Source: Meghimatium bilineatum (taxonomy: Eukaryota; Mollusca; Gastropoda; Stylommatophora; Philomycidae). Taken from it: DNA of 64,000 nt. The notes beneath the pieces were generated by a model that ran no database searches, had not been told where the DNA came from, and saw nothing but the letters and a program-made list of their open reading frames with translations. The stretch spans positions 100,897,587 through 100,961,586 of the forward strand of contig CM067322.1 in NCBI GenBank assembly GCA_034231615.1, written 5' to 3'. This document shows positions 5,440 to 18,339 of this stretch, piece by piece (position 1 is the stretch's first letter; each line of letters begins with the position of its first letter). Both the position numbers and the translations under genes were made by a program.

Positions 5440-5880
5440 TAAAGTTTAATATAGCTCAAAGAGTAAAATACTCCGGATAAGGGTGATATGGAGAGGTCGT
5501 GCGAAGGTCGTGCCGAATGTGCTAATATAGCTCATATAACAATATACGCTGGATAAGGGTGATAAGGTGAGGTCGTGCAAATGTCATGCCATGCCATGCC
5601 ATGTTACATAACCGGATAATACACTCGACACGAGTGCGCTTTTTTATTGTCCATATAACATTTACTCGGCCTGGAGAGATCGTGCAAATGGGAGTCATGT
5701 TACATAACCGGACAATACTTAACACATATAACAATATACTGGATACGGAGAGGTCGTGCAAAGGTGGCACCATGCCCCGTGCTGTTACATAACGGGCTTT
5801 AATATAGCCCAAATAACAATAAACGTGTCATACAAAAGTCGGGTAAAGGTCGTCACCTGGTACTTATCCGGCTAATATAT
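5440..5880. repeat. Degenerate array at the outer edge of the palindrome
   Basis: Roughly 100-130 bp units contain AATATAGCTCATATAACAAT, GGAGAGGTCGTGCAAA and TTACATAACCGG in varying order. The same motifs form a similar array at 34.6-35.08 kb. The right palindrome arm keeps only the innermost unit (about 18060-18185), so the outer edges are asymmetric. The motifs could be terminal or subterminal repeats of the element that makes up the arms. Confidence 0.75.
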
Positions 5881-7586
5881 ACCTCATATAATAATGAGAT
5901 GTGAATGTGTCGAGTGTGCGGCTGAATGTACTGAGTGTGCCTGCACATCCCATATGACGGCAATCGAAACCGGCCGAACCAGCCGAACCGGCCGAACCGA
6001 CCGGCGGCGGGGGTGTGGTCCGGAGCGATACCCACTCGCTATGGACGAATTCGGGGAAATTGTCTATCTAATGATGCGAATGTGTGTGTGTGGGGTGGGT
6101 CTGTTATTTGGTAGTGGAATTTTCATTTTATTTGTTTTGGTGATACAAGGAGCTGGGCTCGTGATAAAGAAAAAATTTCAAAGCGACTTCCAGTGAATAA
6201 GGTGTACATAGCCCCATCTCTTCCCCCTTGTGTCGGTGGGGCTGCGTTTGGTGAGTATTAACATGTTATGACCTTATTTGTTTAGTGGATATTTTGTGGT
6301 TTTTCCACTGAAATTTATTTATGGTACTATCTTTTTACTAACCTATTTTAAACCACATGTGAAAGAGCATGCAAAGTTCAGATCATAAAACTGCCAGATG
6401 CAATATAATTACACTCGCGGAAACTAGCCAGAACAGTGTAATTAACACATGGTCGTGTCTGGGGTGTTGTGGAAATGGTAATAAAAATAAGGTATGGATG
6501 CTGTAAGATCGGTTAAAGGCCCGTGTATGTGAGTGGGTGCTTGGTAGTGACAGTTTTTCTTTAGCTGTTATGCTGATACAATGAGCTGGATTAGTGATAA
6601 AAAAATCTCCACTGCACCTTCCAGCAAATGAGATCGGCATAACCCTACCTCCTCCACTTGTGTCTGTGGGGTTGAGTTTGCTGCGTTTTAACATGTTATA
6701 ACTGTATATGTTAGTAGTTATGTTGTGGTTTGTCTACTGAAATTTATTTATGGTAGTATCTTTTATATAAAACGAACCAATTTTAAACTACATGTGAAAG
6801 ATCACGAAAAGTTCAATCGGGGTCATCAATAACACTACCCTATTTAGATCTGGTTCAAACTGTACGATGACATAATACAGATGCATACTTTTCCACACAA
6901 AAATTGGGATGGAAACTTAGAAAGAATGAGGGCAGCATAACCCCGTCATGCTATTGGTGTCAGCAATATAAATGGCCTATTTAGCTCTGTTTCATTGTGT
7001 TGAATCTTAAATTATGTTCCGAAAAACATTGTAAATCATAAGGCTACAAGGGCAATTAGCCATCTGTTAGCTCATGGGCTATTTCAATATATGCTAATTA
7101 GCGTACTTTTCCACAAAGAAAACGACACTGGAATCTTAGCACGAATGATGTCAGCATAATCCGATCACGCAACCAGTATATGAAGGCGAACACCCTTTAT
7201 CTATCTTAGCTGTCTCTGTCTGTATATAAGCACTATAAACATGGTTGGTGTCCGAATGTAGGGATTTCGTTTCGTGATTATGCTATATTATTATTATTAA
7301 TGTTATTAATATACTGATACAAATTTTACTTAAATTATAAGTTTAAATTTCAAATATTATTTTACAAAATATTTCCATCTCTATAAAATAGTTTACAAAC
7401 GAAAAATCAATCCCTGTATACACTCCAGCAATAAACCCACAGGTAGAGCAAGCCAGCTTAATTACTGTCTCGGGACGAGGAACGCGTGTCAATCGATAAT
7501 CACCAAGAGTGACGGCTTGACCACAGCGTAAAATGTATTAGAGCAACACAGACAATGGCAAAATAATTGCGGCTAATTATAAGAAA

Positions 7587-7655
7587 CATATATATATATA
7601 TATATATATATATATATATATATATATATATATATATATATATATATATATATAC
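7587..7655. repeat. TA microsatellite
   Basis: About 34 TA repeats. The matching place in the right arm (near 16360-16372) has only a few, so the tract changed length after the arms arose or differs between haplotypes. Confidence 0.97.
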
Positions 7656-8005
7656 GTGAAGCATACATAAGCGTGAACATGTCGCATTCATAACATACAT
7701 TGAATTACTGAAAATGGTTAAAAATTAGTCTTACTATTAAACTATGAAAATTTTTTTTAAACTGGTCTGTTAAATGCTTACAATACGGCCATATCAGACC
7801 ACCTGGTAGAGATTAACACCGTCTGTTCTGACGATCGTCTCTGACATGTTTATTACTGCAATTTTGAATATTTGTAAATCTGACTCTACAACACGATTTA
7901 GCAATGTGTTATGAGTGTTCTCAAACTCCCTAAGTCTTCGTACATATATAGTTAAATATACCTTGGTGTAAGAGTTAGAAATTGTACCTAATTAATATAT
8001 ATTAT

Positions 8006-8044
8006 TGTATATATATATATATATATATATATATATATATATAT
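8006..8044. repeat. TA microsatellite
   Basis: About 19 TA repeats. Its partner in the right arm, 15879-16008, is more than three times longer. Confidence 0.97.
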
Positions 8045-15256: not shown

Positions 15257-15583
15257 TCATTTGAATATATGTAATATTACTAACGCCAATAGATAACTTT
15301 GTTACCAGTTTAAAGCAACCACGTATTTTAACTGCTTATATTACATTTAAAAGTCCGTACTGTTTTAAAATACATACATGTGTAAATTAAATTATAATTT
15401 AAATATCTTTTGCGTAAGTTTATTAATATTGATAATTATAGTATAGGCCAATCATGCTCGGAATTCTCTGTTTAAATCACTCGACTGTAAGGGGAGTTTG
15501 AGAATGTGTACAGACGCTGAATGAGTGTTTTGTAAAGCTTTAAACACGCTAAAGAGCTTTAAAAAATCTAAGTGTGTGTGTCC

Positions 15584-15649
15584 ATATATATATATATATA
15601 TATATATATATATATATATATATATATATATATATATATATATATATAA
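15584..15649. repeat. TA microsatellite
   Basis: About 33 TA repeats, mirror of 8300-8380. Confidence 0.97.
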
Positions 15650-15878
15650 CATACTTGGATCACATCACAAAAGCAACAAATACAACTGAAGAAAACAATA
15701 TGAAAGATAACTTAAACGAATTGCTCTTCGCAGACGATCAAGCACTACTACCAGCGTCATAAGAACACATACAAAGATAAACACCCAGATTACTTCAAAC
15801 ATACCAAACCTTTAACATGAAGATAAACAAAGAAAATGCCGAAGTCAGGAATCTAGAAAAAACGGAAAGAAACACCAA
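15650..15878 (+). pseudogene. LINE reverse transcriptase scrap, right arm
   Basis: Plus-strand version of the scrap at 8045-8300, with LNELLFADDQALL as motif C. TA tracts flank both sides. Confidence 0.7.
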
Positions 15879-16008
15879 TATATATATATATATATATATA
15901 TATATATATATATATATATATATATATATATATATATATATATATATATATATATATATATATATATATATATATATATATATATATATATATATATATA
16001 TATATACA
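15879..16008. repeat. Long TA microsatellite
   Basis: About 64 TA repeats against about 19 in the mirror tract at 8006-8044. The long Tyr-Ile peptides here are only a product of the repeat. Confidence 0.97.
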
Positions 16009-18339
16009 ATAATATATATTAATTTGGTACAATTTCTAACTCTTACACCAATGTATATTTAACTATATATGTACGAAGACTTAGGGAGTTTGAGAACACT
16101 CATAACACATTGCTAAATCGTGTTGTAGAGTCAGATTTACAAATATTCAAAATTGCAGTAATAAACATGTCAGAGACGATCGTCAGAACAGAAGGTGTTA
16201 ATCTCTACCAGGTGGTCTGATATGGCCGTATTGTAAGCATTTAACAGACCAGTTTTTTAAAAATTTTCATAGTTTAATAGTAAGACTAATTTTTAACCAT
16301 TTTCAGTAATTCAATGTATGTTATGAATGCGACATGTTCACGCTTATGTATGCTTCACGTATATATATATGTTTCTTATAATTAGCCGCAATTATTTTGC
16401 CATTGTCTGTGTTGCTCTAATACATTTTACGCTGTGGTCAAGCCGTCACTCTTGGTGATTATCGATTGACACGCGTTCCTCGTCCCGAGACAGTAATTAA
16501 GCTGGCTTGCTCTACCTGTGGGTTTATTGCTGGAGTGTATACAGGGATTGATTTTTCGTTTGTAAACTATTTTATAGAGATGGAAATATTTTGTAAAATA
16601 ATATTTGAAATTTAAACTTACAATTTAAATAAAATTTGTATCAGTATATTAATAACATTAATAATAATAATATAGCATAATCACGAAATGAAATCCCTAC
16701 ATTCGGACACCAACCATGTTTATAGTGCTTATATACAGACAGAGACAGCTAAGATAGATAAAGGGTGTTCGCCTTCATATACTGGTTGCGTGATCGGATT
16801 ATGCTGACATCATTCGTGCTAAGATTCCAGTGTCGTTTTCTTTGTGGAAAAGTACGCTAATTAGCATATATTGAAATAGCCCATGAGCTAACAGATTGCT
16901 AATTGACCTTGTAGCCTCATGATTTACAATGTTTTTCGGAACATAATTTAAGATTCAACACAATGAAACAGAGCTAAATAGGCCATTTATATTGCTGACA
17001 CCGATAGCATGACGTGGTTATGCTGCCCTCATTCTTTCTAAGTTTCCATCCCATTTTCTTTGTGGAAAAGTATGCATCTGTGTTATGTCATCGTACAGTT
17101 TGAACCAGATCTAAATAGGGTAGTGTTATGGATGACCCCGATTGAACTTTGCGTGATCTTTCACATGTAGTTTAAAATTGGTTCGTTTTATATAAAAGAT
17201 ACTACCATAAATAAATTTCAGTAGACAAACCACAACATAACTACTAACATATACAGTTATAACATGTTAAAACGCAGCAAACTCAACCCCACAGACACAA
17301 GTGGAGGAGGTAGGGTTATGCCGATCTCATCTGCTGGAAGGTGCAGTGGAGATTTTTTTTATCACGAATCCAGCTCATTGTATTAGCATAACAGCTAAAG
17401 AAAAACTGTCACTACCAAGCACCCACTCACATACACGGGCCTTTAACCGATCTTAAAGCATCCGTACCTTATTTTTATTGCCATCTCCACAACACCCCAG
17501 ACACGACCATGTGTTAATTACACTGTTCTGGCTAGTTTCCGCGAGTGTAATTATATTGCATCTGGCAGTTTTATGATCTGAACTTAGCATGTTCTTTCAC
17601 ATGTGGTTTAAAATTGGTTCGTTTTATATAAAAAGATAGTACCATAAATAAATTTCAGTGGAAAAACCACAAAATATCCACTAAACAAATATGGTCATAA
17701 CATGTTAATACTCACCAAACGCAGCCCCACCGACACAAGGGGGTAGAGATGGGGCTATGTAGACCTCATTCACTGGAAGTCGCATTGAAAATTTTTCTTT
17801 ATCACGAGCGCAGCTCCTTGTATCACCAAAACAAATAAAAGGAAAATTCCACTACCAAATAACAGACCCACCCCACACACACACACATTCGCATCATTAG
17901 ATACACAATTTCCCCGGATTCGTCCACAGCGAGTGGGTATCGCTCCATACCACACCCCGCCGCCGGTCGGTTCGGCCGGTTTCGATTGCCGTCATATGGG
18001 ATGTGCGGGCACACTCAGTACATTCAGCCGCACACTCGACACATTCACATCTCATTATTATATGAGGTATATATTAGCCGGATAAGTACCAGGTGACGAC
18101 CTTTACCCGACTTTTGTATGACACGTTTATTGTTATTTGGGCTATATTAAAGCCCGTGATGTAACATCACGGGGCATGGTGCCACATACACTACTATCAT
18201 TGCATTGGTTACCGACATCATCTCTAACGTCATACTACTAGTGGTTGTATAGAAGTAACTACATTAGTTTCCCTCTGTGTTTAACTGTAAATGTCTAAGC
18301 GCTGTGCACGTGCCGAGCCATAGATCATTCAGTGTAGAC

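Follow-up and report, generated by a model that had tools for sequence, protein, structure and literature searches.

A long palindrome in the Meghimatium bilineatum genome is probably one copy of an inherited family of palindromic Maverick/Polinton derivatives

We analysed a 64,000-nucleotide stretch of the genome of the gastropod Meghimatium bilineatum (GenBank assembly GCA_034231615.1, contig CM067322.1, positions 100,897,587 to 100,961,586 of the forward strand; hereafter the window, numbered from its first letter), which contains a palindromic element at 5389-18195. The element lies between two copies of the hexamer ATCATT, at 5383-5388 and 18196-18201, its left side reading ATCATT-AGTAGTGTATG and its right side CATACACTACT-ATCATT. 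On the forward strand, the left terminus AGTAGTGTATG (5389-5399) carries the (AGT)2 end motif of Mavericks and the right terminus CATACACTACT (18185-18195) carries (ACT)2. A preliminary description of this DNA had reported that 5764-11308 and 11363-18185 are reverse complements around a 54-bp spacer, and alignment confirms a left arm at 5764-11308, a central spacer at 11309-11362, and a right arm beyond it. That description took the right arm to be continuous as far as 18185, overlooking the single run of 100 N in the window, a scaffold gap at 12581-12680. The gap lies within the right arm and separates its inner part (11363-12580), read at the end of what we call contig 1 (the window up to 12580), from contig 2 (the window from 12681 on), which supplies 12681-13872 and the remainder of the arm, 13873-18184. 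The edges of the palindrome had been described as asymmetric; repeats are indeed present on the left only, as about 364 bp of subterminal sequence with 76-bp repeats between the terminus and the shared arm (5400-5763), but the outer edge does not fall at 5764 and 18185, since the matching termini lie at 5389 and 18195. The right arm of this copy has lost about 364 bp of subterminal sequence. One gene is present in each arm. The left-arm copy (9875-10803, reverse strand) has a broken frame with overlapping open pieces at 10183-10803 and 9875-10252; the right-arm copy, on the forward strand, is open until the gap as read from contig 1 (11868-12580) and consists of two overlapping open pieces as read from contig 2 (13159-14089).

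The stretch at 11390-12580 recurs at 12681-13872 with 2 differences in 1,192 columns. From this match we read the repeated 1.19 kb as an unmerged contig overlap and not as a third copy; the assembly would have broken within the right arm, leaving both the gap and the duplicated overlap. Because the 1.19-kb stretch is displayed twice, the right arm merely appears longer, and the gene, which is listed three times in the window, most likely exists twice; the third gene stretch was considered as a third gene copy and dropped. With the overlap counted once, the true length of the element is about 11.5 kb. Another family copy contains a 100-N gap at C4:17797809-17797908, indicating that palindromes of this kind break the assembly more than once. 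A gap with a duplicated overlap inside one arm, and a second gapped copy, are what would be seen if the palindrome were an assembly artefact, produced by fold-back reads or by a join at the gap between two haplotypes in opposite orientation. However, contig 1 by itself includes the centre and 1.2 kb of arm on either side of it (2 differences in 1,218 columns). Both sites at which the right piece of contig 1 differs from the left arm are shared by contig 2, so that the palindrome is independent of the scaffold join. Moreover, the 6-bp duplication and the matching terminus are found on both sides of the gap, ten other centres in the genome are free of N, the copies lie in different flanks, and fold-back reads should have given mirrored host flanks as well. 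The TA tracts differ in length between the arms, as had been noted before. The inverted repeat is no computational mirror image. The palindrome in the window is real, and we consider an artefact very improbable.

The ends of the element resemble those of Maverick/Polinton transposons. In vertebrate Mavericks, the commonest ends are 5'-(AGT)2//(ACT)2-3', the target-site duplications are of 6 bp, the terminal inverted repeats (TIRs) are 46-1,447 bp long, and the elements measure 12.7-24.6 kb (PMC8097293). The palindrome has the 6-bp duplication, the (AGT)2//(ACT)2 termini and TIRs, the whole element being an inverted repeat except for its loop. We scanned the window for duplications with flank lengths of 4 to 10 bases; the combination of an 11-base terminal match and an exact 6-bp duplication was obtained in none of 20,000 shuffles of the two flanks. 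Among the 127 AGTAGT-ACTACT pairs that lie 1-40 kb apart in the window, identical 6-bp flanks occur only here, and one other pair has flanks with one mismatch. With both duplications and both ends present, insertion of the palindrome as a single unit is most likely, and the scaffold join is right.

We next consider the rest of the genome (1.61 Gb in 32 contigs, from which coordinates are given as contig and position). The outer left arm has at least 128 matches in its own genome (the best 40 of 422 candidates were scored), many of which form inverted pairs 6-15 kb apart. Ends and middle pieces were taken for 13 inverted pairs, and ends alone for two further pairs. The copy at C11:14594936-14609107 is palindromic from end to end with no N, having 0 mismatches between arms in the outer 3.1 kb and 7 in the inner 4 kb; C25:71702042-71716029 is likewise palindromic, with 3 (outer) and 13 (inner) mismatches and a few gaps. 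An exact 6-bp duplication flanks 11 of the 16 copies checked, the window copy included; one of these, C25:71702042, has a right end one ACT shorter. The duplication has one mismatch in three copies (C1:143723, C1:8931700 and C21:42082859) and was not found in the remaining two of the 16, on C12 and at C21:48.05 Mb. The number of AGT units at the ends of copies is apparently one to three, the count being equivocal where an AGT unit borders directly on the flank. For twelve copies, both ends could be placed; these measure 12.7-15.7 kb (median 13.96 kb; the half-deleted C21:42082859 is left out). Two palindrome centres at C20:14355094-14357944 and C20:14368154-14371004 lie 13 kb apart and possibly belong to adjacent copies.

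We examined the centres in 10 of the 13 pairs. Seven of them have a common loop of about 55 bp, which may lie in either direction; in the other three (C1:143723, C25:39228796 and the C17 copy) part of one arm beside the centre is missing. No complete palindrome was present in the pieces fetched for the C12 copy and two C21 copies, as expected from the decay of long palindromes. In the window spacer, the right half is the family-type loop and the left half includes a duplicate of an arm stretch that also lies near 11094; the loop of this copy is partly rewritten. The plan of the family is a terminus, an arm of about 5.5-7 kb, a loop of about 55 bp, the inverted arm, and the same terminus. A derivation of the centre from a Maverick terminus was considered and dropped, a comparison of the two having shown no similarity. 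A subgroup with shorter centres has about 1.12-1.14 kb between the gene domains, compared with about 1.70-1.74 kb in most other copies (C7:47589022, C1:33224424, C24:25238137, C24:26331364, C21:43940997, C8:64047104, C1:101171060 and C18:12667706).

The existence of this family bears on how the palindrome arose. Fold-back or sister-chromatid fusion, inverted insertion of a second copy, and mis-joining of haplotypes had all been proposed; these origins find no support, since the whole palindrome lies between identical 6-bp duplications with Maverick-type termini, and since further copies that share its centre and its type of ends occur elsewhere in the genome, each between its own flanks. A segmental inverted duplication of host DNA, resembling the palindromes of Y chromosomes and with arms kept alike by gene conversion, would account for the high arm identity and the sharp step in identity of the window copy described below. 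We regard it as very improbable, since copies scattered over many contigs have this centre in common and show the same type of ends together with target duplications. The palindromes might instead be ordinary transposons whose TIRs were extended stepwise from internal sequence, with no special replication, as in Galileo. The target duplication of Galileo/Foldback elements differs from that of the palindrome family. Some Galileo copies are reported to have recruited internal sequence and to have longer TIRs, but the longest Galileo TIRs in the same account are about 1.26 kb (PMC3573991), whereas two copies here have arms of about 7 kb; moreover, Galileo belongs to the P-element superfamily and has different ends. 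The copies in M. bilineatum have their centre and arms in common and do not show TIRs lengthened copy by copy. We consider stepwise extension unlikely: a centre common to many copies, together with arms of about 7 kb, indicates that the palindrome is inherited and does not arise anew in each copy.

We then compared the arms of the window copy. The left arm differs from contig 2 at 52 of 5,405 aligned bases, with 47 mismatches in 2,151 bases outside about position 7990 and 5 in 3,254 inside it. The support interval for this change in rate is 7062-8111, and the likelihood gain is 29.7, whereas none of 300 shuffles gave a gain above 8.5. Three rates (3.0%, 1.0% and 0.15%) fit the data somewhat better than two (gain 34.6). 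The earlier statement that identity is higher at the centre therefore stands, but the change is nearer to a step than to the smooth gradient that had been described. Arm-to-arm conversion, suggested at the same time, is a fair account of the step, limited to this one copy, in which the inner arms were probably homogenised after insertion.

Across the family, the two arms of a copy evolve together. In a tree of a 1.56-kb arm segment, built from 23 arms of 14 copies, the arms are sisters in all nine copies with both arms available, which indicates that, as the family spreads, palindromes are made afresh or homogenised. The difference between arms is 0-0.90% within copies and 0.51-7.44% between copies (median 3.16%, 244 pairs), and by raw distance the nearest neighbour of 17 of 18 arms is its own mate. 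Arm divergence in this segment is highest, at 0.90 and 0.84%, in the two of these nine copies whose duplication has one mismatch; in the other seven, whose duplication is exact, it is 0-0.51%. These nine copies, a weak sample, suggest that the arms start out alike and diverge with age.

An alternative that concerns the mechanism and not the identity of the family is that these are palindromic Maverick derivatives whose arms are kept identical by chromosomal arm-to-arm conversion after insertion. Sister arms could also stem from such conversion, and the window copy, with near-identical inner arms and outer arms 2-3% apart, is what a conversion tract leaves. This copy fits poorly with arms that are alike at birth: simple regeneration at that stage does not predict a 14-fold difference in divergence between its outer and inner arms. 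In addition, within- and between-copy distances overlap, and the left arm of C1:143723 is equally near another copy. On the other hand, conversion after insertion does not lead one to expect the relation between arm divergence and the state of the duplication, weak as nine copies make it. We view conversion after insertion as a serious possibility, though one that we would not favour.

The gene in each arm is read from the centre towards the terminus and encodes a protein in which a linker connects two C2H2 fingers to a domain that Pfam does not recognise. It is open across the fingers and the domain in 14 of 23 arms, with a length of 273-307 amino acids (307 in ten of them); in the window copy, the frame is interrupted both in the left arm and in the right arm as read from contig 2. 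The pooled ratio of non-synonymous to synonymous differences, pN/pS, is 0.46 (28 non-independent pairs from 8 distinct open frames), which, short of a formal test, hints at constraint on the gene. When the best 150 of 537 candidate matches to the domain in its own genome were scored, 101 were near and 49 distant (46-52% identity). At least 38 head-to-head pairs within 4 kb account for 76 of the 101 near matches, and there are no tail-to-tail pairs among these 101. Of the distant matches, 26 lie inside open frames of 1,401-1,482 amino acids, counted by eye. Four domain matches at 74-77% identity (C25:78658891, C19:29016731, C23:24016429 and C23:24022871) perhaps represent an older palindromic branch. 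Protein searches of viral contigs and phages found no relative of the gene, and a PDB search with its second domain returned one chance-level match (E 1.4). We listed 47 open reading frames (ORFs) of at least 45 amino acids in the left arm and its edges, part of which were covered by Pfam, in the window copy. In 17 open pieces of the window arms, only C2H2 fingers scored above the Pfam cut-off, the rest being sub-threshold noise; the retroviral-type integrase, capsid and packaging genes of Mavericks were not found in the pieces so scanned.

Mavericks coexist with the palindromes in this genome. One has ends at C1:77787659 and 77801357, a CGCGAT duplication, and 367-bp TIRs at 99.5% identity; a second lies at C11:8844714-8858202 with a CTCGTG duplication; a third, on C20, has one end only. 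The two-ended elements are 13.70 kb (C1) and 13.49 kb (C11) long. The first 33 bp of the window element match the Maverick terminus at C1:77801357 at 31 positions, as would be expected if the palindromes were non-autonomous derivatives that retain the ends of an apparently autonomous element, C1:77787659-77801357. The C1 Maverick encodes an integrase with a chromodomain (rve 8.2e-15, Chromo 5.9e-07) and a 1,431-amino-acid ORF, counted from the first ATG, with C2H2 fingers at its start. Residues 26-307 of the palindrome protein align with residues 32-300 of this ORF at 42% identity. Further along, the ORF contains K..GNAAYG and DTDS motifs and an FDFE stretch, as in family B polymerases (PolB); its assignment as PolB-like draws on these motifs, its position and its neighbours. 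The palindromes thus have nearly the same ends as a Maverick from their own genome, together with a homologue of only the front of its polymerase, and the 42% identity indicates that they are no recent offshoots of that particular C1 Maverick. In PHROGs, the 1,431-amino-acid ORF had a single match at the fingers and another, weak one (E 0.23); it had one match at E 0.9 in phages, none in viral contigs, and 46 in the PDB, every one of the latter at the zinc fingers. No PF03175 matches fall within the palindromes, though PF03175 also misses the 1,431-amino-acid ORF of the Maverick. A small ORF of the C1 Maverick (5612-6220 of the fetched piece) matches the PC4 transcription coactivator with a score barely over the Pfam cut-off. 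Further family B polymerase frames, roughly 1,340-1,350 amino acids long and with N-terminal parts not recognisably related, occur at C24:19408539 and C22:50598798; we found no Maverick ends around these two loci within the flanks fetched.

Based on these observations, we conclude that the window palindrome is most probably a copy of an inherited family of non-autonomous palindromic Maverick/Polinton derivatives. Like Mavericks, the family has (AGT)2//(ACT)2 ends, a 6-bp duplication, near-identical terminal sequence and a homologue of the polymerase front, and its total length is similar (median 13.96 kb for 12 palindromes, compared with 13.70 and 13.49 kb). Unlike Mavericks, it is fully palindromic, and catalytic polymerase, integrase and capsid genes were not seen in the pieces scanned; its inverted repeat reaches about 7 kb, in contrast to the TIRs of 46-1,447 bp in vertebrate Mavericks (PMC8097293). 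Several observations weigh against this conclusion or parts of it. No catalytic PolB, integrase or capsid gene was found in the window-arm pieces scanned. The 1,431-amino-acid ORF has fingers alone above the Pfam cut-off and no polymerase match, and it is not among the 19 matches of a genome scan with PF03175. The palindrome gene has no recognisable similarity to the N-terminal parts of four other PolB loci, and it is read outward from the centre, unlike the polymerase genes of vertebrate Mavericks, which are read from the end towards the middle (PMC8097293). At about 11.5 kb, the window copy is shorter than the 12.7-15.7 kb of the 12 others. Inverted repeats abound in the window, and for this reason the same criterion of terminus and duplication is also passed by 57 of 19,074 pairs of segments taken from its real sequence. 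Finally, a terminal-protein domain would have a four-stranded sheet, two helices and a linking Ser or Tyr, and the only model of the gene product, a single-sequence prediction, has too low a score (pLDDT, the predicted local distance difference test score, 38.7) to support the terminal-protein step discussed next.

Our confidence in the identity of the family does not extend to a further, inferred proposal, in which the palindromes would use a Maverick as helper; replication through a folded strand, priming by the gene product and packaging are parts of the same proposal. The protein-primed polymerase of the helper would copy the linear palindromic DNA from its two identical ends. The displaced strand, self-complementary throughout, would fold into a long hairpin closed by the loop, and the end of this hairpin would again be a double-stranded origin; differences between the arms would be exposed as mismatches, and copying would restore the palindrome. 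The integrase of the helper would then insert the element, giving rise to the 6-bp duplications, and primers would be provided in double dose by the two copies of the gene. The N-terminal D1 domain of the polinton polymerase (pPolB) has been modelled as a terminal protein that acts as the replication primer (PMC11071308), and the alignment of the palindrome gene to residues 32-300 places it at this N-terminal position. Variation in the number of AGT units would suit the sliding-back or jumping-back of protein-primed initiation (PMC3480470), an analogy that is only suggestive. We judge the case to be evenly balanced for fold-back of the displaced strand as the process by which, at every round, one arm is rebuilt from the other or corrected against it. 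That the gene supplies a free-standing terminal protein, or a competitor of the terminal protein, making the element a satellite, has slightly less than an even chance in our estimation. Taken as a whole, the proposal is of a full-palindrome satellite that encodes only a terminal protein, twice, recruits the Maverick polymerase to its own ends, replicates by full-length self-folding, which maintains the identity of its halves, keeps the genome length of its helper as if packaged in the helper's capsid, and uses the helper's integrase; in this complete form it is tentative and rather unlikely to hold in every part.

There are parallels in other protein-primed systems. A deletion derivative of the kalilo linear plasmid reportedly forms hairpin and duplex DNA, to go by the title of a 1992 report by Vierula and Bertrand; unlike this derivative of a fungal mitochondrial plasmid, the palindrome family is chromosomal and multi-copy. 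Some defective adenovirus DNAs carry the same end twice; such genomes arise in infections, whereas the palindromes are an inherited, integrated family. The kalilo plasmid is treated as protein-primed (PMC11071308), and adenovirus has a linear genome with a terminal protein, incomplete particles holding DNA of the left genome end (PMC5033970). Among the papers listed by our literature searches, judged by titles and the openings of abstracts, we recognised no description of palindromic Polintons or Mavericks or of palindromic transposons.

The window holds the end of a second, divergent member of the repeat group on the forward strand (34570-37042), which begins AGTAGTATATAG, with AGTAGT at the aligned position, and shares the 76-bp subterminal repeats; no second end for it was found within the window. 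Just past this truncated relative, inverted and direct copies of a Penelope-like element, recognised by eye, lie at 37314-41154. Open frames at 48531-49949 resemble, by eye, a hAT-type transposase, and several non-LTR (long terminal repeat) retrotransposon relics are close by. At 59823-60304 there are ten perfect 48-bp tandem copies (100% match), with several other minisatellites nearby, and further large arrays occupy 21879-22669, 24888-26284 and 26513-27264.

The palindrome is real and unusual, and its family is best read as a palindromic, apparently satellite-like branch of Mavericks. Palindromic elements of this kind break assemblies and inflate gene counts. A near-perfect, full-length mirror-image element that is inherited as such is hard to reconcile with the usual instability of long palindromes, and it suggests an extrachromosomal mode of replication that makes or restores palindromes. 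If the gene encodes a free-standing terminal protein, the family would show the primer and the enzyme of the Maverick polymerase separated by nature, and would be a Maverick satellite system that is open to study from genome sequence alone.

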